From Pteria penguin (taxonomy: Eukaryota > Mollusca > Bivalvia > Pterioida > Pteriidae): a stretch of DNA of 64,000 nt. Positions within the stretch are counted from its first letter, which is position 1. The number at the start of each line of letters is the position of its first letter. Shown here piece by piece: positions 3,173 to 53,400 of this stretch. The translations under genes were made by a program, and so were the position numbers. A model generated the notes under the pieces. The model worked only from the letters and a program-made list of their open reading frames with translations, searched no databases and had not been told where the DNA came from. The stretch is from contig CM068585.1 of the NCBI GenBank assembly GCA_035048485.1, positions 13,807,501 through 13,871,500 of the forward strand. The letters are read 5' to 3'.

Positions 3173-4690
3173 ATGTCATCAGTATAAGCAAAATAGTATT
3201 ATTCGCTGTCACAGAATTAGGAAACGGCACAGCCGTAGTCAAAATAGGTATATGTCATAAGCAATAACAATACTGTTATATAGTATAGGTAACGCAGATG
3301 TTTAGTTACTGTGAAATACGGAAGTCAACATGTCAGACAACGATACATCATATGAGCAAATAAGGCCTTTATAACGACCGTAAAATTTGCGGAATGTTGA
3401 CATAAGTCGTGATATCTCATATCCTTGTTTAAGTAACTTCTCTCCTAGTAATTGACTTCGATAAATGAAAGAGCGATACTCAGATGACGCTCGCGCATAT
3501 CGAATCAATTGGGTATACATAAACACCGTACGCAGGTGATAAAGGAATGTTGCTACAAGTATATGGAAAGTTAACAATGGGGAAACTAAAGTCACCACGT
3601 TTGTCATAAATTGAAGTAGTAAGTTTACCATCTCGGTCGACATCAATAAGTGGATCTAAATATGAAGCACATGAATTGAATATTGTAGTGTCCTTAATTT
3701 CAAGTTCCTTTGGATATATTGTATGTATGTATGTATCAAAGTTTTTGTTATTTATAGATAGTACATCATCAATATATCTGAATGTAAAATTAAAGGACAA
3801 GGCCAATTGCTTCTTATTTTGACTTATAAGATTTTGTATGAAGTCAATTTCGTACGACGAAAGGAACAAATCGGCTAGCAAAGGAGCACAGTTAGTCCCC
3901 ATAGGGATTCCTATGGTTTGTTGGAAGACCTGGTCACTGAACACAACATATATATTGTTTTTTTATGTTTTTAATGTCATCTTCAGAGTACTTATATTCA
4001 GATTCAGAGTGGTTTTTCACAAAATATATATTTGGATATCCTAAAACAATGAATTTATATCTGCGTGAACCCTCTCTGTTGAAGACACAGTTATCAATAA
4101 TTCTAAAGAGCGGAGCCTGTTTTTCAATTTATCATGAGGTAGGGTGGTATAAATTGTAGAAAAATCATAAGCCTTAATGAATTTAATAGTTGTCAGATTT
4201 TGAGATTTTAAGTTTTCCAATAATCCTTTGGAGTTTTTGTTTAGTATCCAAAACTGATTAATACCACTTCGAGAGTAAATCACATCTGAGCACGTCTGAA
4301 GTTTCTCCTTAATTGCAGATAATATTTTGGCAAGGAGGGCTGATAGAGGTTTGGTGGAACATTTACTTGATCCTGCAATGAACCTATGTTTATATGGATC
4401 TTTGAGTAATTTAGGGATCCAATATAAATAGGGTAACTCGAACTCACTATCCTCAGTACATAAGGTAAAGGTACTCAACACTGACTTATGGTTATTAATA
4501 ATTGCATGTAGTGAGAGTGTAGATCGAGTGTAAGTGGGATTTCCAGTAGATTTGTTAATGCCAAGTTCCTCTAAAAGACAATTTATACAAAACGTCTTGC
4601 AAATAAAAACGATATTGTTCGAGGCTTTATCAGCTGGTACTAACACATATTTGTCATGTATTATTTCGAGTTCTTCTCTGACTATAAATT
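3173..4690 (-). pseudogene. Penelope-like element reverse transcriptase, frameshifted
   Basis: Translated on the minus strand, 4690-4041 gives DKYVLVPADKASNNIVFICK, PYLYWIPKL, RFIAGSSKCSTKPLS and the motif A region YDFSTIYTTLPHDKLK. 3944-3480 gives IGIPMGTNCAPLLADLFL, the catalytic FRYIDDVLSINN, SIYDKRGDFSFPIVNFPY and SPAYGVYV. 3560-3302 gives RYARASSEYRSF and FRKFYGRYKGL. These are hallmark blocks of PLE reverse transcriptases, which are related to telomerase RT. YIDD is intact, but the reading frame breaks near 3.95-4.04 kb and again near 3.5 kb. No endonuclease domain is visible next to it, so the clade is unresolved. It gives an in-window reference for the second PLE: the residue after VFI is an ordinary Cys codon. 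Confidence 0.85.
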
Positions 4691-4708
4691 TTCTCGCATA
4701 AACCCTGC

Positions 4709-4835
4709 CACTATTACTGCGGGACTGATGTTTTGCTTATGCCGTGAAAATTTTGACGTCATAATAAAAATCGACGTTATTTGTTGGGAAAAGTTATCAT
4801 TTTGTCAAATTAATACCAGTCCCGCGACAATAGTG
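4709..4835. mobile_element. 127-bp MITE-like element with about 19-bp inverted termini
   Basis: The left end CACTATTACTGCGGGACTG matches the inverted right end CACTATTGTCGCGGGACTG at 17 of 19 positions. The interior is AT-rich and non-coding. No clear target-site duplication was seen. Confidence 0.55.
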
Positions 4836-5029: not shown

Positions 5030-5460
5030 ATGTGCTGGTATATATGTATAGCAAACAATGTGGGAGATGTTCTGGTATACAGCAAACCATCTGGGATGTT
5101 CTGGTAAGAAACAGACCATCTGGGATGCTCTAGTATAAGGCAGGCCATCTGGGGATATTTGTATAAAGCAAAGCAGAACATCTGGAAATATTCTGGTATA
5201 TAGAAGACTTTCCGTGATGTACTGGTTAAAAGCAGAAGGTTTTGCTTTGGTATATAGAGGACCTTCCAGGATGTTATAGTAAGTAATATTTTTCTGGGTT
5301 TAGTTCGGGTATACAATTCACATAGCGTGAAAATTTCTGTCATAAAGCAGACCTTCCGCGATATTCTCATAATAGAGAACACCATCATTTCTTTTAGTAT
5401 AAAGCCTCCCTCTTGGATATGTTCTTCAGCAGGATGTTCGTCTACATAGCAAACATTCTA
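5030..5460. repeat. Degenerate tandem repeat flanking the large satellite
   Basis: Loosely repeated segments around ATCTGGGATGTTCTGGTATA with AGCAGACC spacers recur about every 30-40 bp and become less alike toward 5400. This may be an older array next to the 45-bp satellite. Confidence 0.45.
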
Positions 5461-5484
5461 GGTGCAGCGTTTGTTCTGGTATGT

Positions 5485-8400
5485 ATGAGAAACGATCGAG
5501 GGTACAATCTGTAAAATACAGTTATATACATGTATGACAGACGAGGGTACAATCTGTAAAGTACAGGTATATACATGTATGACAGACGAGGGTACAATCT
5601 GTAAAGTACAGGTATATACATGTATGATTGACGAGGGTACAATCTGTAAAGTACAAGTATATACATGTATGAGAGGGTACAATCTGTAAAGTACAGGTAT
5701 ATACATGTATGAGAGGGTTTAATCTGTAAAGTACAGGTATATACATGTATGATTGACGAGGGTACAATCTGTAAAGTACAGGTATATACATGTATGATTG
5801 ACGAGGGTACAATCTGTAAAGTACAGTTATATACATGTATGAGAGGGTACAATCTGTAAAGTACAGGTATATACATGTATGATTGACGAGGGTACAATCT
5901 GTAAAGTACAGGTATATACATGTATGAGAGGGTACAATCTGTAAAGTACAGGTATATACATGTATGATTGACGAGGGTACAATCTGTAAAGTACAGGTAT
6001 ATACATGTATGATTGACGAGGGTACAATCTGTAAAGTACAGGTATATACATGTATGATTGACGAGGGTACAATCTGTAAAGTACAGGTATATACATGTAT
6101 GAGAGGGTACAATCTGTAAAGTACAGGTATATACATGTATGATTGACGAGGGTACAATCTGTAAAGTACAGGTATATACATGTATGGTTGACAAGGGTAC
6201 AATCTGTAAAGTACAGGTATATACATGTATGGATGACGAGGGTACAATCTGTAAAGTACAAGTATATTCATGTATGATTGACGAGGGTACAATCTGTAAA
6301 GTACAGGTATATACATGTATGACAGACGAGGGTACAATCTGTAAAGTACAGGTATATACATGTATGATTGACGAGGGTACAATTTGTATAGTACAGATAT
6401 ATACATGTATGATTGACGAGGGTATAATCTGTAAAGTACAGGTATATACATGTATGACAGACGAGGGTACAATCTGTAAAGTACAGGTATATACATGTAT
6501 GATTGACGAGGGTACAATCTGTATAGTACAGGTATATACATGTATGATTGAAGAGGGTATAACCTGTAAAGTACAGGTAGATACATGTATGACTGACGTG
6601 GGTACAATCTGTAAAGTACAGGTATATAAATGTATAAGAGACGAGGGTACAATCTGTAAAGTACAGGTATATACATGTATGATTGACGAGGGTACAATCT
6701 GTAAAGTACAGGTATATACATGTATGATGGACGAGGGTACAATCTGTAAAGTACAGGTATATACATGTATGAGAGGGTACAATCTGTAAAGTACAGGTAT
6801 ATACATGTATGATTGACGAGGGTACAATCTGTAAAGTACAGGTATATACATGTATGGTTGACAAGGGTACAATCTGTAAAGTACAGGTATATACATGTAT
6901 GGATGACGAGGGTACAATCTGTAAAGTACAAGTATATTCATGTATGATTGACGAGGGTACAATCTGTAAAGTACAGGTATATACATGTATGACAGACGAG
7001 GGTACAATCTGTAAAGTACAGGTATATACATGTATGATTCACGAGGGTACAATCTGTATAGTACAGGTATATACATGTATGATTGACGAGGGTACAATCT
7101 GTAAAATACAGGTATATACATGTATGACAGACGAGGGTACAATCTGTAAAGTACAGGTATATACATGTATGATTGACGAGGGTACAATCTGTATAGTACA
7201 GGTATATACATGTATGATTGAAGAGGGTACAATCTGTAAAGTACAGGTATATACATGTATGACTGACGTGGGTACAATCTGTAAAGTACAGGTATATACA
7301 TGTATAAGAGACGAGGGTACAATCTGTAAAGTACAGGTATATACATGTATGATTGACGAGGGTACAATCTGTAAAGTACAGGTATATACATGTATGATTG
7401 ACAAGGGTACAATCTGTACAGTACAGGTATATACATGTATGAGAGGGTACAATCTGTAAAGTACAGGTATATACCTGTATGATTGACGAGGGTACAATCT
7501 GTAAAGTACAGGTATATACATGTATGAGAGACGAGGGTACAATCTGTAAAGTACAGGTATATACATGTATGAGAGGCGAGGGTACAATTTGTAAAGTACA
7601 GGTTTATACACGTATGAGAGGGTACAATATGTAAAGTACAGGTATATACATATATGATTGACGAGGGTACAATCTGTAAAGTACAGGTATATACATGTAT
7701 GAGAGACTAGGTACAATCTGTAAAGTACAGGTATATGCATGTATGAGAGAGTACAATCTGTAAAGTACAGGTATATACATGTATGATTGACGAGGGTACA
7801 ATCTGTTAAATACAGGTATATACATGTATGATTGACGAGGGTACAATCTGTAAAGTACAGGTATATACATGTATGATTGACGAGGGTACAATCTGTAAAG
7901 TACAGGTATATACATGTATGATTGACGAGGGTACAATCTGTAAAGTACAGGTACATACATGTATGAGAGACGAGGGTACAATCTGTAAAGTTCAGGTATA
8001 TACGTATATGATTGACGAGGGTACAATCTGTAAAGTACAGGTATATACATGTATGAGAGACTAGGGTACAATCTGTAAAGTACAGGTATATACATGTATG
8101 AGAGACGAGGGTACAATCTGTAAAGTACAGGTATATACATGTATGATTGAGACGGTACAATCTGTAAAGTACAGGTATATACATGTATGAGAGACGAGGG
8201 TACAATCTGTAAAGTACAGGTATATACATGTATGATTGACGAGGGTACAATCTGTAAAGTACAGGTATATACATGTATGAGAGACGAGGGTACAGTCTGT
8301 AAAGTACAGGTATATACATGTATGAGAGACGAGGGTACTATCTGTAAAGTACAGGTATATACATGTATGATTGACGAGGGTACAGTCTGTGAAGTACAGG

Positions 8401-9965
8401 TATATACATGTATGATTGAAAAGAGTACAATCTGTAAAGTACAGGTATATACATGTATGAGAGGGTACAATCTGTATAGTACAGGTATATACATGTATGA
8501 GAGGGTACAATCTGTAAAGTACAGGTATATACATGTATCATTGACGAGAATACAATCTGTAAAGTACAGGTATATACATGTATGAGAGACGAGGGTACAA
8601 TCTGTAAAGTACAGGTATATACATGTATAATTGACGAGGGTACAATCTGCAAAGTACAGGTATATACATGTATGAGAGACGAGGGTACAATCTGTAAAGT
8701 ACAGGTATATACATGTATGATTGACGAGGGTACAATCTGTAAAGTACAGGTATATACATGTATAAGAGACGAGGGTACAATCTGTAAAGTACAGGTATAT
8801 ACATGTATGAGAGACGAGGGTACAATCTGTTAAGTACAGGTATATACATGTATGATTGACGAGGGTACAATCTGTAAAGTACAGGTATATACATGTATGA
8901 TTGACGAGGGTACAATCTGTAAAGTACAGCTATATACATGTATGATTGACGAGGGTACAATCTGTAAAGTACAGGTATATACATGTATGAGAGACGAGGG
9001 TACAATCTGTAAAGTACAGGTATATACATGTATGATTGACGAGGGTACAATCTTTAAAGTACAGGTATATACATGTATGATTGAAGAGGGTACAATCTGT
9101 TAAGTACAGGTATATACATGTATGAGAGTGTACAATCTGTATAGTACAGGTATATACATGTATGAGAGGGTACAATCTGTAAAGTACAGGTATATACATG
9201 TATGATGGACGAGGGTACAATCTGTAAAGTACAGGTATATACATGTATGATTGACGAGGGTACAATCTGTAAAGTACAGGTATATACATGTATAATTGAC
9301 GTGGGTACAATCTGCAAAGTACAGGTATATACATGTATGAGAGACGAGGGTACAATCTGTAAAGTACAGGTATATACATGTATGATTGACGAGGGTACAA
9401 TCTGTAAAGTACAGGTATATACATGTATGATTGACGAGGGTACTATCTGTAAAGTACAAGTATATACATGTATGAAAGACTAGGGTACAATCTGTAAAGT
9501 ACAGGTATATACATGTATGATTGACGAGGGTATAATCTGTAAAGTACAGGTAGATACATGTATGAGAGACTAGGGTACAGTCTGTAAAGTACAGGTATAT
9601 ACATGTATGATTGAAAAGGGTACAATCTGTAAAGTACAGGTATAAACGTGTATGATTGACGAGGGTACTATCTGTAAAGTACAGGTATATACATGTATGA
9701 GAGGGTACAATCTGTATAGTACAGGTATATACATGTATGAGAGGGTACAATCTGTAAAGTACAGGTATATACATGTATGATTGACGAGGGTACAATCTGT
9801 AAAGTACAGGTATATACATGTATGAGAGGGTACAATCTGTAAAGTACAGGTATATACATGTATGAGAAACGAGGGTACAATCTGTAAAGTACAGGTATAT
9901 ACATGTATGAGAGGGTACAATCTGTAAAGTACAGGTATATACATGTATGAGAGACGAGCGTACGA
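5485..9965. repeat. 45/40-bp minisatellite array with higher-order structure
   Basis: About 100 copies of GGTACAATCTGTAAAGTACA followed by GGTATATACATGTATG and a variable 4- or 9-bp linker (ATTGACGAG, AGAGACGAG or AGAG). Unit length is 45 bp, or 40 bp where five linker bases are missing. 6139-6789 and 6809-7459 are nearly identical and offset by 670 bp, which equals fourteen 45-bp units plus one 40-bp unit. That is a higher-order duplication. 45 is divisible by three, so very long ORFs remain open on both strands. These are artefacts of periodicity, not genes. Confidence 0.95.
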
Positions 9966-11237
9966 TCTGTTGAGCACAGGTATAGAGGCATCAGTACACA
10001 TCTGTCGGTGAGACTTGATGATACAGCATGATCGAGCGTAATGTCTTTCATTCATCCCCCATGATCTGTTATTATCTTCTTCCGATCTTATATAATCCAT
10101 CTGCTGTAAACAGTCCGCTTTTAACTGGTAAATAAATCATTATCCCTAAACCTCTATTATTAATTAAAACCGAGTCCCTGGAAAAGTTCAATGAACCATT
10201 TAACAAAACTTCCATACATGAAATACAACCAAAACTCTTTAATAGAATGTTCTGACCTTTTATTTGTAATTGATTTGTCGTCACTCTTATTCAATGATCA
10301 ATATAGGCACAGCCGGCTTTGAGTTTTTAATCCATACAAAACTCCTCAAAATGCTTACAGTTTATATGTAGCCAAGTATGTTCAAACCTAACAGGAAACA
10401 CGTCAGGAAATTAAGGTATTAACGATTGTAGAACTCGTTTGACTGATTTTCTTACTATACAAGATGACAATTCAAGCTTCTCTTGTTGCTTCATATTTTT
10501 TCACCTATGAAAATTTTCCACATTATAAGAGTACTTTATACAGGCTCTTGGCTGGAATGAAGCACCGCTTGGGTATTAATCTAATGAATGAATGTATCAA
10601 TAGGTGTAACGTAGGTGTTTATCAAAGAAGGTGACATATTTGCACTTGAATCCAGAACGGCAGACTTTGAACATGAGCCTGAAGTTTACATATATCTGTG
10701 CTTTGCCTTGCACTATATCAAGTATATGGTTTAACACTTTGTACAATGTATAGATGGGTAGGTTGCTATCGACTCCAGCCGCATGTCTGTACCTAAAATC
10801 ACTGCATGGTCTGGAGAGGGGGGGGGGGTTAGGTTGCAACCCTAAATATGGTCGAAAATGGCATTTTTGGTAAAATTTTACGACCAGAGGTGGGGGTGGG
10901 GGTTGCAACCTCCTCCCCCCTCTAAATCCGCAAATACATTTATTTTCTATACACATATATATTTAGCTTGCGTAAATTTCAAACTGTAGATCTAGTATCC
11001 ATCGCTCTTTAAAAACCTCTATCATTACAAGACATTGCACTGTGAAGGAATTCCTTTTTCATCACTCACTCGGGATGTAGACAACAATTTTTACAATATG
11101 TTTACCTAAATTTTTATACATAACAAATATGTCAGCGCTGAACAACTGCAAGTACATGTAATTCTAGCGTTTCAAATCTGGGTTGTCTGCAGGAACTGAT
11201 TGTCGATTGGGAAATTTCACGCGCGAGCTGGCACATA
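9966..11237. other. Non-coding AT-rich interval with one G-rich inverted repeat
   Basis: No supported gene. At about 10,805-10,920, a G-tract followed by AGGTTGCAACC faces GGTTGCAACC followed by a C-tract, forming an imperfect inverted repeat. Its right end CTCTAAATCCGC resembles the GGCGGATCC-type dispersed repeat found elsewhere in the window. Confidence 0.4.
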
Positions 11238-26528: not shown

Positions 26529-29500
26529 AAATACATAAAACTATAGGTTCGATAAAAATAGCATCCCTCAATTGTAGAGGTTTAAGAGACACTAAGAAAA
26601 GAAAAGATGTTTTCAAATTTTTAAGAGAGAAGAAATCATGTATATATTGTCTGCAGGATACACACTTACTAGAAAGAGATAACAATGTTATACACTCACA
26701 GTGGGGTTTTGAGCATGTTCTTACACAGGGTAGATCGAATGCACGGGGTGTCTTAAATCTCTTTAAAAATAACTTTGAATATGAGCTTCATAGAGTTAAG
26801 AAGGATGATGTAGGAAATTTACTTGTATCAGATATTAAGTTATGTAACAAATTTTCTATTACCTTAATTAATTTATATGGTCCAAACCAAGACTCACCTG
26901 AATTTTACGATAAGATATACGATTTAATTAGAGATTTTGATAATGAATTTATAATTATCTGTGGTGATTGGAATTTGGTCCAAGACAGTGATAAAGATAC
27001 ATATAACTACGTGGCCCAGAATAACAGGAGAAGTGTGAAAGTTGTAGAAAAAATTAAAAATGATTATAATTTAGTTGACCCTTGGCGAGTCTACAATCCA
27101 AATACATTAGGATATACATGGCACAAAACGAATCCTATTAAGCAAGCTAGGCTTGATTTCTTTTTAATTTCAGAAGAGGTTCTATCTCTTGTTAAAAGTG
27201 TTAATATTTTGCCAGGATATAGGACAGATCACTCATATATTGAAATAGAATTGCAAGTTACTGATTTTGTAAAGGGGAAAGAGTTTTGGCATTTTAATAA
27301 CTCACTTTTGAAAGACACAGATTATATTAAGAAGGTTAAGGAAATTATACTAAAGACAAAGGAAGAATATGTACCTTTACCAGTATTGAGAAACAGTATC
27401 CCTGATATTCCGAATGATTTAATACAATTTACGATTGATGATAGTTTGTTTCTGGAAGTATTGTTGATGAATATTCGTGGAATTACTATATCCTATGGTT
27501 CATGGAAAAATAAAATTAGAAATGAAGTAAAGGTAAACACTGAAAGAGAGATAAAACTGCTTCAAGAACGTTTTAACAATACTCATGATGAACAGGTTAA
27601 TATTCAGTTGAATGACTTAAAAATTCAATTACAAGAGATTCGACAATATGAATTACAAGGATTAATTTTAAGGGCGGGGGCTAGATGGATAGAGGATGGA
27701 GAAAAACCTACTAAGTACTTCTGTAATCTTGAGAAAAGAAACTACGTTAATAAAACTGTATCTAAACTTATTAGTGATGATGGGAAAGAGATAACAGAAC
27801 AAAATCAGATTTTAAATGAAATAAGTAATTTCTATCAAGATTTGTATAGAAGTAGGGATCATTTGTTGGAAGATGCTAACTTACATGACCTTCTTAAAGA
27901 TTATAATATACCTAAATTGTCGGAAGAGGATAAAACTATACTAGAAAGTGATATTAAGAAATCTGAAATTCATGAAGTTCTGAAACAGTGTAAGAATAAC
28001 AAAAGCCCGGGAAGTGATGGCTTTACAGCAGAGTTCTTTAAGTTTTTCTGGTTGGACATAGGTGACTTTCTTCATAGATCATATTTACATTCATTTTTAT
28101 CGGGGGAATTATCACAGTCACAAAAATTAGGTATTATTTCTATTTTACCTAAGGGGAATAAGCCCAGGGAATTTCTAAAAAATTGGCGCCCGATATCACT
28201 ACTAAATGTTACATATAAGATTCTCTCAGGTATTATAGCAAAAAGATTAAAATCAGTTCTTAGTTACTTAATTCATGAAAATCAAAAAGGTTTTATAGCG
28301 GGTAGATACATTGGGGAGAACACAAGACTTCTATATGACATTATTCATAACTGTAACAAACTAGATATTCCAGGTATCCTACTTATGATAGATTTTGAAA
28401 AGGCATTTGATTCGGTTTCTTGGAAGTTCATAAGAAAGGCACTTAATTTTTTTAATTTTGGAAAAAACATTTTGCATTGGATAAATATCTTTTTCAATGA
28501 CTTCAAATTATGTGTTATCCAGAATGGTATTTACTCTGAATTCTTTCGTATAGGGCGTTGCTGTAGACAGGGGGACCCGGTTTCACCATATATATTTCTT
28601 TTCTGTGTAGAAATCATGGGAGCTATGTTCAGGAAAAATAAAGATATTAAGGGGATACATATTATGCATAATGAATATAGATTGTTACAATATGCAGACG
28701 ATACTGTTATTCTTCTAGGTGGCAGTGGGAAGTCACTTAAAAATGCACTATCTTTAATTGGGCAATTTGCTAAGTATTCAGGCCTTAAGCCAAACTATCA
28801 AAAAACTTCATGTATAAAAATAGGAACTCTTAAAGAAACAATTGTAAATTATTGTAATGAATATAATCTGACCTGGACTCAAGAACCATTCACTTTTTTA
28901 GGAATTAAGTTTTCAGTTGACCTAGAAAATGTGATTAACTTAAATTTTGAGAGTAAACTTAATGAGATTAAGAAACTGATTCAGTCCTGGAATAGACTTT
29001 ATATAAGTACAGCTGGTAAAATTACTGTTGTTAAATCTATTTTATTACCAAAATTGACACATTTATTTATAGCATTACCGAATCCATCTGAAAATTGGAT
29101 AAAGGAGGTGGAAAAATTATTTTTTAATTTCATTTGGAAAGGTAAAAGAGACAGGATTGCCAGAAAAAACAATTATTCAGGATTTTTCCTATGGGGGGCT
29201 AAGAATGATTTGTTTACCATCATTTATTAAAGGATTAAAAACCACACGGATGCGAAGAATTTTGTCAAGTAATGAAAATGTGTCATGGAAAAAACTATTA
29301 GTGGATACATTGCCTGAATCTTTCAGATATCATTTACACTTTGGTGGACAATATTACAAAACATTAGCAGGGAAAATAACTAATCCTTTCTGGCAAGATG
29401 TCTTTTTAACTTTTCATCATTACCGAAATATTATTGAAAAGGATGAACATTATATATTTAAGAATATATGGTATAGTTGTGATTTTAAAATTAATGGTAA

Positions 29501-30355
29501 GCCAATATTTTATGAAAACTGGTTTAAAAAAGGTATTATATATGTATATGATTTCTTGGATAGCGTTGGAAGGGTTTTGACATATGAAATGTTTTGTGAT
29601 AAGTTCAGTTTTAGACCTCCATTTACACTTTATTATGGGTTTGCCTCTATTATTATACAAAATATTGATTTGATAGAATATGACTTTTTTGTTGAAAATC
29701 AACCATATAGACCATATTTTGCTAATGCATTGCTGAGAAATGTTAAAGGTGCTAGAGTTTTTTATGATAAGTTTATATATTGTAAGTATGAAAGACCAAA
29801 AAGTGAAGCTAAGTGGGAGGAGGAGTTGAACTTTAACCCAGGGTCTGAATGGTGGAAAAAACAAAATGATTGTGTTAGGTCTTTTACGAATGATATTGCT
29901 TTAAGATGGTTCCATTTTCGTATGATTCATAGAATAATTGGCACTAGGTTACTACTAAACAAAATTGGTTTGTCAAACACAAATTTATGTACCTTTTGTA
30001 ATGAATATCCTGAAAGTATAAATCATATTTTCTATACTTGTAGAATAAGTGCCCAAATATGGTCGAATGTATTTCTTTGGATAAATAACACTCTTGATAC
30101 TTATATTGATCTAAACGATGTGGATGTACTTTTTGGAAAACTCTGAAAGAACAATAGGCCATTAAACTTAATAGTTTGTTTAGTAAAACGATATTTATAC
30201 AAGCAAAAACTCATTAATCACTTGCCGACTATTACTGAGACAAAGAAATACATTCAACATTATATAAAAACAGACTTGTACATTATGAAAAAGAATTTAA
30301 GATTTGAAGATTTTGAGAAAAAGTGGAAACAGTTTACTGCTATAATGTATAATTA
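26529..30355 (+). pseudogene. LINE ORF2: endonuclease, reverse transcriptase, C-terminal zinc knuckle
   Basis: Open from 26,529 to 29,230, then a frameshift near 29,190 into 29,157-30,146, then a UGA at 30,144, after which the same frame runs to TAA at 30,353. APE endonuclease: ASLNCRGLRD, QDTHLL, YGPN, CGDWN, RLDFFLIS, RTDHSYIEIEL. RT: KSPGSDGFTAEFFK, NWRPISLLNVTYKILSGIIA, GFIAGRYIGENTR, LLMIDFEKAFDSVSW, GRCCRQGDPVSPYIF, catalytic QYADDTVIL, FLGIKFS. The C-terminal CTFCNEYPESINHIFYTC is a CCHC knuckle. The protein would nick target DNA and copy the RNA in place. No in-frame ATG precedes the endonuclease, so translation initiation is unclear. Confidence 0.92.
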
Positions 30356-43339: not shown

Positions 43340-43815
43340 CTTTAATGGTATTATTTTAATAAGAAAAAAGAGGAGTTACTGGCTCAGTTATGTGGCAGAA
43401 GTCACCATAGAGCTATACAGTACATGAATATAAATAATATACTAGAACATATATCACATTACAAAAATATTTGATTGTAGTGCAATTACGATACCGACTT
43501 AGGACGGTCATTTAATTTGACAAAAGCCAAACAAATGGTGTGGTTAACCGGTTTACGGGCCCACCTTCCCACTCACCGTAACAGCAGAACAATCAAAGGA
43601 CTTACATTTAAAAAATTTATAAATAATCCTCCATGTAAAGAACAAGGGTCAACAGGTATCGCATATTGAGAGGTCATAAAAATATAAACACGTAAGGTAT
43701 TGTAAAATACATAATGGTATAAAAATCTATGCGACATCAACATGATAAACCGTGCTCTGCCAGTCTGAAAGCGAGCTAAGACCCTAGATCTGTAGGAGTC
43801 CCGACTAACAGTCAG

Positions 43816-43883
43816 AGGGGACGAGGTTCAGGACCATGTCTCCTCTGAAAGAGGTTTGGACAAGGCCCGTCATATAGTCCCCC
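43816..43883 (-). promoter_or_regulatory. SECIS-like element (form II) at the 3' end of the PLE ORF
   Basis: Read on the minus strand. Helix I is GGGGGAC (43,883-43,877) with GUCCCCU (43,822-43,816), followed by an internal loop. The quartet is UGAC at 43,872-43,869 opposite UGAA at 43,830-43,827, which allows the tandem G-A/A-G pairs of a K-turn. Helix II pairs GGGCC.UGUC with GACA.GGUCC. An AAA bulge (43,857-43,855) starts 12 nt after AUGA. An apical mini-stem CCUCU/AGAGG closes on UUC. This meets the published SECIS form II layout, which recruits SBP2 and eEFSec for UGA recoding. The apparent ORF stop (UGA, 43,872-43,870) overlaps the quartet. Confidence 0.72.
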
Positions 43884-46800
43884 ACCGCCTGTTAGTCAGC
43901 GTGCAACGTTCAAGTAAAAGTCTGCATAAGGCTGTAGAGGGGCCAAATACAAGACCTATAGTCTTTTTGATGATCTCAATATCATATTGTCTATTTATAA
44001 GACGTTTGATTATTTTATTACATGATAAAATAACGTTATCGGAGCCTTTTACTTTCCTTAGTTTATATACGAGATCACCGTAAAATAAATGATGGGAAAT
44101 TCCATTGGATACATACTGTTGAAAGGAAATATTTCCAAATTTAGATAGAAGTTCTGAATAAGATCTGAAGAATTTGCCAAATGTTTTTCTTAGCTTGTGA
44201 TATCTGTAACCCTGAGTTAAAAGTTTAGTAGTAATTTGTAAATTTCGTTTATGAAAGTCCAAACATCGGTGCAGCCTCTGACAAATCGAACTAATTGAGA
44301 TATATAGATACCATATGATGGGAGTCGAGGGACATCGCCATCCAAGTAAGGAAAATTTACAATAAGAAATCCAAAGTCCTCACGTTTTATCATAAATATT
44401 AGTATATATCAGGTGGTTGATAATTTTGATGTTCAAATCTAAGAAAGGTGTATATTTATCTCAGGTATTAGCTTTATTCAATGTGAGCTCTGGTGGATAA
44501 AAATTTCTGATATAAATTGTTCGAATTCAGGGTTGTCGATAACCAAAAAAACATCCATATATCTACAAGTATTATTGAATTTGTCAATGAGGTCAAAACG
44601 TTTTGATTTTTGAAGAGAAACCATAAAAATCCTCTCATAACAATAAAGAAATAAATCTGCTATCAGAGGCGCGCAGTTAGTACCCATAGGAATCCCAACT
44701 ATTTGTTGATATATCTTGCCATCAAATTGCACAAAAATATTATTCATGAGAAAATCTAGTGCTTTACATAATTCCTTGCAAGTCCAGTATTTATATGAAG
44801 TATATTGTTTGTTGGAAAAGAATCCGGAGTTATTGGAAGTACATATGTACGTTTTAGATTCTCTGTGAAAACACCATTGTATAAGAGACAGCAACTTGCT
44901 TTTAATCAAATCATGAGGCAGAGATGTATAAAGTGTAGAAAAATCAAATGTAGAAATTTGAGTCGCTTTGAAATTTAGCGAAAGAAGTTTGTCTATAACT
45001 TCATGAGAATTTTTAATCGACCAAAAGTAATTGATGTTACTATTATGAAATGCGACATCACAATATTTGATAATATGATCTTTTATAGCAGTTAGAGCAG
45101 ACGTAATATGCTTCGATAGTACCGTAGTAGAGCAGTGGCTAGAATTACATATGAAACGTGATTTATATGGACTTTTATGTAGTTTTGGGAGCCAATATAT
45201 GGTTGGTAGATCAGATTTATCAGTTTTAATTTTGAAGTCGGACATGGTCATGAGGTGATCGTGCAAGGTGCTGTCTTTTGAGGTTTCCACATATGTATGA
45301 GTGCAGTTTTATTCGTTTTTAAGTACTTCAGTGTAATATAGTTTTCAAACAACTATTATGTTATTACCTGCTTTATCAGCAGGAACAAAGACATATTTAG
45401 CATGTAAGTCAGCTATCTTTTTTTAATAGAATTTGCCGTCAATGTATTAGGCTGTTGAAATAAATGCGGATTTTCCGTAAAGTTCTTAATACGGATATCG
45501 ACAATTCTTAAAATCTCGTATTTCCAATCATTAAGAGCATGAACATTTACCTGTTCTTTTTTACACCAACGTTTACAATATGTAGTTAAAGCATCTTCTA
45601 TAACGTCACGGCATTTATTGAAATCTATCCTGGACGGTAACCTATATTTAGGTCCTTTTCCAAAAAGGGTGCGCAATTTCTTGTCCGAAATACAGTTTAG
45701 GTCACCAGTAATAACATGACCTGCCGGTTTATAAACATATTTAGATTTATCACAAGAACACGACGAAGGAATAGAGTCTGAAACATCAGGGTTAGATGTA
45801 ACTTTATTATAATTTAGAATTAGATTTCTTATAGGCTTTTTGTACTGGTAACAAATAAGTGGAGGTTCTAAATTCTCAAAATATTGGGGGATTTTAGATG
45901 TGACTCTGTGATCACGGAAAATATTAGAAATGTTAAGTAGATCGAAGCCTTTATTAATAAATTTAATTTTTGAGAAATTGCTGCTTGGGTGGAAGAGACG
46001 GAATACGAGGAAAGAGTTTATTATATGAAAATAAAATAATCAAATTGAGTTTATATCAATCAGAATTGCGTAAACTTCGAAGATCAGCTTCGTCCAGGAT
46101 AGATTTCAATTTATTTACTGGAATAGAAGGATAGTGCATGCAAGAGTTCATGACGGCCATTATTTTTTGCGATAAATAGAAGATCGTTTAATGACCTATT
46201 TAAACGATTACGTTTTTTTGATGTTACGATTACGGCGACGACCATGTGACCTACGTTTTCTAATAGTTTTATGTCTTAATGTAAAAAATATTGATCTTAA
46301 TTCTGACGAGAAGAAATATTACCTTGTCGATATATTTGGTCGTTGAGACCGAGAGGATATGGGGTTTGGAGTTGTTTAATCCAGTAGAGCTCGGTTTCCA
46401 AAAGTCGTTTTTTAACATCTGATTTCGTATCACCTGGTAATTTAGAGATATTTTCTACTGGAGTTATTTTCACATTGTTAATATTATGTTGGTATTTATT
46501 AAAGTGGTTATAAAAAAAAATTCTGGTATTTACATCGTGAATTATTACGAATTTTATAGGAATGATTCCGAAAACGTTGTTTCAAAGTTTGAGAAGTTTC
46601 CCCGACATATTGAGCCCCACATCCTCTAGCTTCTCCAGTGATGACATATATAACATTGGCAGATTTTCAATCTATGTCTTTGTCTAATTTGGTGTTAAAT
46701 GTATTTCCATTAACCGAAGATTCAATATTGGACTTGCAGCTTAAATGATGGCAAGTAAGACATTTCTTGGCGTTGCACTTATTAATCTTAGAATACCCTC

Positions 46801-46905
46801 TGCGTATAGAATTGACAGCTCTGTAAGAATTTATAGGTGTGAATGTTTTTGAAAATGAGATAGAACGTTTAATAGGGAAACTACTTTTAAGTGGAGAAAT
46901 ATGAA
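43870..46905 (-). pseudogene. Naiad-type PLE protein: CCHH + GIY-YIG + CxC linker + reverse transcriptase, with in-frame UGAs
   Basis: Minus-strand domains in order: CNAKKCLTCHHLSC zinc-binding block (about 46,785-46,735); GIY-YIG nuclease NVIYVITG...QYVGETSQTLKQRF...ETELYWIKQLQTPYPLGLND (about 46,665-46,330); basic RRSHGRRRNRN; KIPQYFENLEPPLICYQY; the CxC motif CSC (45,760-45,752) followed by KPAGHVITGDLNCI and LRTLFGKGPKYRLPS; RT blocks FVPADKAGNNIIVV, IYWLPKLHKSPYKSRFI, FDFSTLYTSLPH, VGIPMGTNCAPLIADLFL and CRYMDVFLVIDN; and a C-terminal thumb. An N-terminal nuclease with a CxC linker is diagnostic of the Naiad/permuted clade. UGAs at 46,669-46,667 and 45,347-45,345 fall where Cys is expected. 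Frameshifts (45.42, 46.05, 46.2, 44.4 kb), a TAA near 45,317 and YMDV in place of YxDD show that the copy is inactive. Confidence 0.85.
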
Positions 46906-47494
46906 CTTTAGAATAATAAGAAGTAGATGAAAGTCTGACTTACCAAAATGGAAAGCAAGATGAAAGTTAAGCATGCACATGAAGGATGTATAAAAAGTTC
47001 AATTATTTGACAATAATGGTAAAGGCATAAGACGGTTAATTGTCGGCCACAGTCTGCAGTTAGTGCAATTAGCTAGGTTACGGACCATCGCCATGTAGCC
47101 AATGCCATTAATTTAAGGACACATATTAATCTCCTATATGGAGAAATAGGATCAAGAAGACAAAAGACATAGATCAGCCATGAAAATATGCGCATTTTAA
47201 AGTAAATCACGAAACCACTATTGACGTATATTATATTTCATTTATATTCAAATTTTTATATCAAGTAGTGTCTATCGACAGTCACCTGAATAGTTATGTT
47301 TTTCTAATGAATAATCATTCAAAATTTCACGAAAATATACAGGTAAACATGCAAATATCTAAAAACTGAAATGATTATCATACTGGCTTCAATAATCCAA
47401 CTCATTACTTTTAAGAAGGTGATGTAAAACTTCCATATAAGAATGACGTTTATAGATAGAAAAAAATCATACAATAGATGAGTATTTTAAGTAC

Positions 47495-52949: not shown

Positions 52950-53400
52950 ATACGTGTTAGATTCAACAGAATCCAGATTTTGCGCTTCGTACTTAGATCT
53001 TCTGCTGATCATTGGCCAAAACGGTAAACTTACTGCTTCAATATATGATATACGTGACTATTTCAATTTTCCTACTGTTAACTTTCTACATGTATATACG
53101 TGTAGCAATACTGACTCTTTTATCACCTGCGTATGGTCTATATTTCTCAGCTGATCCGATATGCTAGAGCGCTTTAGTCTACAGGTTTTCATTTACCGAG
53201 GAAAGCTACTGAGTGAAAAGCTAATATCACAAGGATACCAAAAACCACTTTTATGTTATTCAATTATTGTGACTGCAGCATTACCGTTACCACCTTCATT
53301 TGTAAAATAACCAAGAATTATACTAACTTATAGCCTCACGACAGATGTGAACGGACAGCAGGGGATGCTTACTCCTCCATGGTACCTAGCCTCAGGTCTT
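52950..53400 (+). pseudogene. Third PLE reverse transcriptase fragment with 3' motif
   Basis: CASYLDLLLIIGQNGKLTAS, IYDIRDYFNFPTVNF, then after a break CVWSIFLS and QLIRYARAL match the C-terminal part of the PLE at 3.2-3.7 kb (CASYLDPLIDVDRDGKLTTS, IYDKRGDFSFPIVNF). GGGATGCTTACTCCTCCATG follows at about 53,359. The upstream RT part is missing. Confidence 0.75.

Follow-up and report, generated by a model that had tools for sequence, protein, structure and literature searches.

A Naiad-type Penelope-like element of Pteria penguin whose single protein is very probably a selenoprotein

A 64,000-nucleotide stretch of the Pteria penguin genome (GCA_035048485.1, contig CM068585.1, positions 13,807,501 to 13,871,500; hereafter the window, with positions counted from its first letter) holds a copy of a Naiad-type Penelope-like element (PLE). 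Judging from the sequences of its copies and relatives, the single protein of this retrotransposon, comprising a nuclease, a CxC linker and a reverse transcriptase (RT), is very probably a selenoprotein. According to the mechanism we propose, a SECIS at the mRNA's 3' end would recruit the host selenocysteine (Sec) machinery, Sec would be inserted at five internal UGAs, and a sixth UGA, located within the SECIS core, would terminate the frame. By alignment to relatives, UGA occupies Cys-homologous positions at the two sites named below as site 1 and site 2 and at the YVIT site (for which one Cys only is seen), but not at the sites labelled 46058 and 44463. An initial annotation of the window had read the element as a Sec-encoding PLE, and comparison with other copies supports that reading.

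All coordinates of the element refer to the minus strand. The copy in the window is 5'-truncated and decayed, and spans 43361..46911 as defined by the ends of its alignments to other copies; the initial annotation had the location right, with bounds (43870..46905) that these alignments revise. At the 3' boundary, 33 of 43 aligned pieces (from 39 copies) stop at 43360-43362, past which the flanks differ among the 20 copies printed. The five longest copies align to the window copy from 46911, its homology starting at approximately codon 42 of these longest copies.

The frame order in both the window copy and copy L030 is GIY-YIG nuclease, CxC linker and RT. A Cys-rich motif (CNAKKCLTCHH) and the GIY-YIG endonuclease (VIYVIT..YVGET) are located at 46312..46786, N-terminal to the RT, as placed by tblastn with the database protein P0179, a Cys-type relative. 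The Pfam GIY-YIG match in P0179 is just below the cut-off (21.1 vs 22.6 bits), and I-TevI takes the three top places among the PDB matches of its predicted model (E 0.008 to 0.034, probability 1.00). The CxC linker motif (SSCSC) at 45752..45760 is encoded by TGT..TGT, with TGT found in readable copies for the first Cys in 27 (plus one partly gapped) and for the second in 28. The RT core (PADKAGNN..GIPMGTNCAPL) at 44250..45422 was placed by tblastn with P0141 (63% identity), and is taken to be an RT from its motifs (YLDD). Pfam returned no RT match, and no domain at all in the L030 protein or P0121 (E 0.1), while profile A3 found no match among PDB sequences at E 0.01.

Naiads reportedly combine an N-terminal GIY-YIG, a CxC linker, an RT and several Sec codons with a high copy number in invertebrates. 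They are also said to carry an insertion-in-fingers domain, to form a pseudo-LTR (a tandem partial copy), to lack a hammerhead ribozyme and to show an insertion bias to microsatellites. On its order of N-terminal GIY-YIG, CxC and RT, the element is a Naiad-type PLE. No hammerhead ribozyme was detected by Rfam at the gathering score in the window or in 20 loci, nor in six further loci with the threshold relaxed to E 1. In L023 and L030, 128 bases of the 3' part of the element recur ahead of its 5' end, at the edge of the sequence examined.

Several other features were noted in the window. A 20-base perfect inverted repeat (46110-46091 / 45636-45617) lies within the coding region of the element, its arms being conserved in 10/11 and 17/18 readable copies. 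Two more PLE remnants occur at 3266-4736 (minus strand), of the Cys type at site 2, and at 52954-53241 (plus strand). A long tandem array with overlapping open frames in several frames occupies 5442-10136 (minus strand), and 26531-30146 (plus strand) contains a long LINE-like frame with endonuclease- and RT-like motifs recognised by eye.

Copies were collected from 838 Mb of genome sequence in 49 contigs using three pieces of the element, taking the best 40 of 3370, 1361 and 755 loose candidates, respectively. Codons were counted in 50 sampled copies, 39 from the first best-40 list and 11 other loci. The 39 copies differ on average by 0.33% over 703 bases, which indicates that the family multiplied very recently. 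The window copy differs by 1.65% from these 39 others and shows decay in the form of frameshifts and UAA stops, tblastn with relatives needing several frames to cover it. The initial annotation had taken it as probably a relic of a Sec-coding Naiad lineage; the lineage is borne out by the copies, while their closeness, and an otherwise open frame in four of them, speak against the lineage being a relic.

Both UGAs singled out by that annotation are present in the expected frame. The first (site 1, DKDID-UGA-KSANVIY, 46667..46669) is TGA in 14/14 readable copies and the second (site 2, NNIIVV-UGA-KLYY, 45345..45347) in 36/36, with neither TGT/TGC nor random codons seen; the other PLE in the window has Cys at the site 2 position, reading FI-C(TGC)-KTF. 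A further UGA at 44461..44463 (NKANT-UGA-DKS), which is a Ser site in kin, had been considered perhaps a plain mutation. It is TGA in 43 of 44 readable copies and hence not private to the window copy. The sole exception, a piece from L065 with 96.2% identity to the window, reads TCA (Ser), and an older piece in L061, of 71% identity, has TCT. The UGA at 46056..46058 (NSD-UGA-YKLN), overlooked previously, is TGA in all 23 readable copies. At the YVIT site (YVIT-x-EARGCG, 46634..46636), the window copy has GGA and all 15 readable copies TGA.

Four of the 46 copies checked (L019, L023, L030 and L049) contain one frame of 1054 codons that opens with MASNI and closes with GTI. All four have their UGAs at the same five codons, lack UAA and UAG, and keep the YLDD motif intact. 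As the young copies are near-identical, their agreement largely represents the state of one ancestor. Decay as the source of all UGAs was set aside, these being fixed or nearly so in the copies, and so was a purely Cys-to-Sec story, given that 46058 and 44463 are not Cys sites. A rough chance estimate for three of the four window UGAs falling at five marked columns (2.7e-7) assumed 960 codons and is not relied on.

Older copies were sampled through the ADKA[AS]NN pattern that precedes site 2, which has 2265 matches genome-wide vs 4 for a reversed control; the sample consists of 100 of the 2265 places, all on one contig. Sixteen of these belong to the Sec lineage (a script gave 19, from which L137, L139 and L140 were removed as Cys types by eye). 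Their site 2 codon is TGA in ten, two of which (L091 and L093) look identical, TAG in two (L158 and L161), TAT in one and displaced by indels in three. Relatives of the Cys type within this genome (YTFTCKKYY and IVFICKxFY types) share the motif before site 2 but differ at the site itself: in the 84 sampled places outside the Sec lineage, TGT/TGC is found in 76 and TGA in one. That one, L112, belongs to the IVF family, which is otherwise of the Cys type. A single scan of genome contigs gave two Cys-type loci, with TGT (L002) and TGC (L001) at site 2.

Six longer older stretches were read. In L130, which belongs to an older subfamily, TGA is present at site 1, the YVIT site and 46058. Site 2 is TGA in L126, L127 and L128 and TAT in L129. 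At the 44463 site L127 and L130 have TCC (Ser), and L129 holds an inverted copy with TGA there; an overlapping L130 piece has CCA, in a stretch that is out of frame. Across the older copies, stops at the Sec sites are TGA in 7/7 cases vs 20/63 elsewhere (p 0.0007, on overlapping pieces that are not all independent).

When L030 is compared to aligned pieces of 58-80% identity, 641 of 1197 differences fall on third codon positions. Each of the regions into which site 1, 46058, site 2 and 44463 divide the frame shows this excess (p 0.018 for the 28 codons ahead of site 1 and p < 1e-5 for the other four), indicating that the sequence following the UGAs was under protein constraint. Constraint around the UGAs, which the initial annotation had named as a check, is seen on both sides in a codon-position test. 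It bears on the possibility that the UGAs are ordinary stops and that the copies are defective ones mobilised by another element's enzyme, as might be imagined from the broken window copy and from the 34 of 39 copies that start further in than the five longest. Four copies are, however, open over 1054 codons except for UGA, the third-position excess continues downstream of the UGAs, and the two UGAs named initially are at Cys columns in an element with a SECIS; we consider this explanation very unlikely.

The SECIS (AUGA ... AAA ... UGA) is located at 43818..43881 and matches Rfam RF00031 (SECIS_1) with 36.6 bits, above the curated gathering score of 35, confirming the SECIS-like hairpin that had been reported at the 3' end. 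The E value is 0.0011 when the whole window is scanned and 7.9e-5 when only 43.0-47.5 kb is, and no other Rfam match reaches the gathering score within the 64 kb. It is embedded in a longer hairpin (43800..43900) with an MFE of -51.2 kcal/mol (z -5.4, 0/200 shuffles as low), the 5' arm of which is coding (CTLTNR). The terminal UGA (43870..43872), TGA in 45/45 readable copies, forms part of the AUGA core. Its place within the hairpin probably leaves it too near for recoding, so that it would act as the stop.

A SECIS at or above the Rfam cut-off is present in 17 of 20 other loci, the exceptions being L031 and two loci without the 3' end (L059 and L060). Among six loci with diverged copies, three score 40.0-40.7 bits and a fourth 34.5, just below the cut-off. 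The pairs are mostly kept, and no two-sided compensatory change was found among 32 pairs in six rows. As for the host machinery, five places in the genome score above the 47-bit cut-off for tRNA-Sec (77.8, 77.3 and three at 47.2), and the one locus read has the anticodon TCA (UCA).

Database proteins were gathered with an RT piece (best 120 of 3051 matches), a read-through piece from nuclease to RT (best 120 of 143) and an N-terminal piece (41 matches). At site 2, the 90 motif-bearing relatives (of 238 proteins) show 48 open-frame ends, 23 C, 17 W, 1 S and 1 Y. Site 1 is reached by 31 of 41 proteins, with 16 ends, 12 W and 3 C as counted by eye. Cys, an open-frame end or Trp is therefore found in 88/90 relatives at site 2 and in 31/31 reaching site 1. 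At the YVIT site, relatives have W in nine cases and C in one; P0240 has Leu there and P0261 Cys. The 46058 site is not a Cys site, with 41 L, 13 F, 13 E and 10 W among 96 relatives. The first Cys of CxC is C in 81 relatives, W in 13 and an end in nine. Aligned to the 477-residue query, 48 of the 120 relatives listed for the read-through piece stop before site 2 and 44 reach or pass the query end; for nine the end falls ahead of the first Cys of CxC, and every other column has at most two ends.

The Trp residues probably correspond to UGA called under genetic code table 4. Within a close family some members end where others have Trp, P0009 and P0141 have Trp at the terminal UGA as well, and 13 proteins are flagged as beginning just after site 2, all of which point to table 4. 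None of the 15 proteins recognised as covering at least two sites mixes Trp with an end. Table 4 alone does not explain five proteins (P0062, P0125, P0126, P0165 and P0181) that start just after the 46058 site yet have W at later sites.

Taken at face value, W at site 2 in 17 of the 90 proteins would favour UGA being read as Trp, or else Cys, through a changed code or plain read-through, without Sec. This is highly improbable: the Trp calls are most likely a product of table-4 gene calling, with close kin ending exactly at the site and two proteins carrying Trp even at the terminal UGA, while the element encodes its remaining Cys residues by TGT/TGC and both a SECIS and tRNA-Sec exist. A set of separate polypeptides (nuclease, RT), each ended by a UGA and followed by re-initiation, might be indicated by the 13 kin frames starting after site 2 but is barely plausible: such starts are gene-finder choices, and the five UGAs, of which three are at Cys columns, do not lie on obvious domain borders.

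Two trees were built, both of them quick and with long-branch warnings. In the linker tree (95 rows), the 80 rows labelled as Sec-like (end, Trp or UGA) or Cys need one change, a count that does not include the inner Cys rows of the RT tree. In the latter (127 rows), rows with Cys at site 2 form two groups, four outside a large clade and seven inside it, so that UGA and Cys were probably exchanged at least once. The seven nested rows are P0068, P0078, P0084, P0086, P0102, P0114 (standing for 1126 sequences) and P0115, and P0083 in the same clade has Trp at site 2. No relative was found in viral contigs scanned with three queries, nor did P0127 match phages or plasmids.

Selenoprotein Naiads have reportedly been found in clams and spiders, so an element of this kind is already known. 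Those Naiads reportedly share with the present family the N-terminal GIY-YIG, the CxC linker, the RT and several Sec codons. PMC11167929 has the Naiad paper (Craig, Yushenova, Rodriguez and Arkhipova 2021, Mol Biol Evol 38:5005) among its references, and no literature on selenocysteine in PLEs was found among the matches listed. The family described here has five UGAs, two of them at non-Cys sites, and a stop UGA inside the SECIS. UGA at non-Cys sites, with one gained from Ser within the family, and a stop inside the SECIS may be new. Selenoprotein P is a host gene rather than a retroelement, with its SECIS in the 3' UTR. It contains several Sec residues (PMC8230778). Several UGAs are recoded in its one mRNA, as we propose for this element.

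A broader reading, to which we give somewhat short of an even chance, is that in a SECIS-bearing element UGA spreads beyond Cys sites and the stop is captured by the SECIS core, with a Sec clade that is perhaps older and wider. With a SECIS aboard, mutation to UGA would no longer be lethal, and UGA could hence spread to other sites. The UGA at 46058, a site of Leu, Phe or Glu found as UGA in two diverged subfamilies, would be one such case. The UGA at 44463 would be another, gained from Ser before the recent burst of copies, with TCA persisting in the 96%-identical piece. The SECIS core would be the one place where UGA likely still means stop. The single change separating Sec-like from Cys rows in the linker tree suggests a Sec clade of possibly greater age and breadth than independent origins in clams and spiders would imply. 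If true, it would take in many metagenomic lineages.

Selenoproteins normally form a limited and stable set of host genes. A retrotransposon with several Sec residues, a recent burst and a new UGA would allow UGA reassignment to be watched inside one type of mRNA, and would tie transposition to selenium supply. It would also offer a natural setting in which to ask what favours Sec over Cys, and even over Ser, in a nuclease and an RT, and serves as a warning that genomes of this kind may be misread by SECIS scans and by gene finders.
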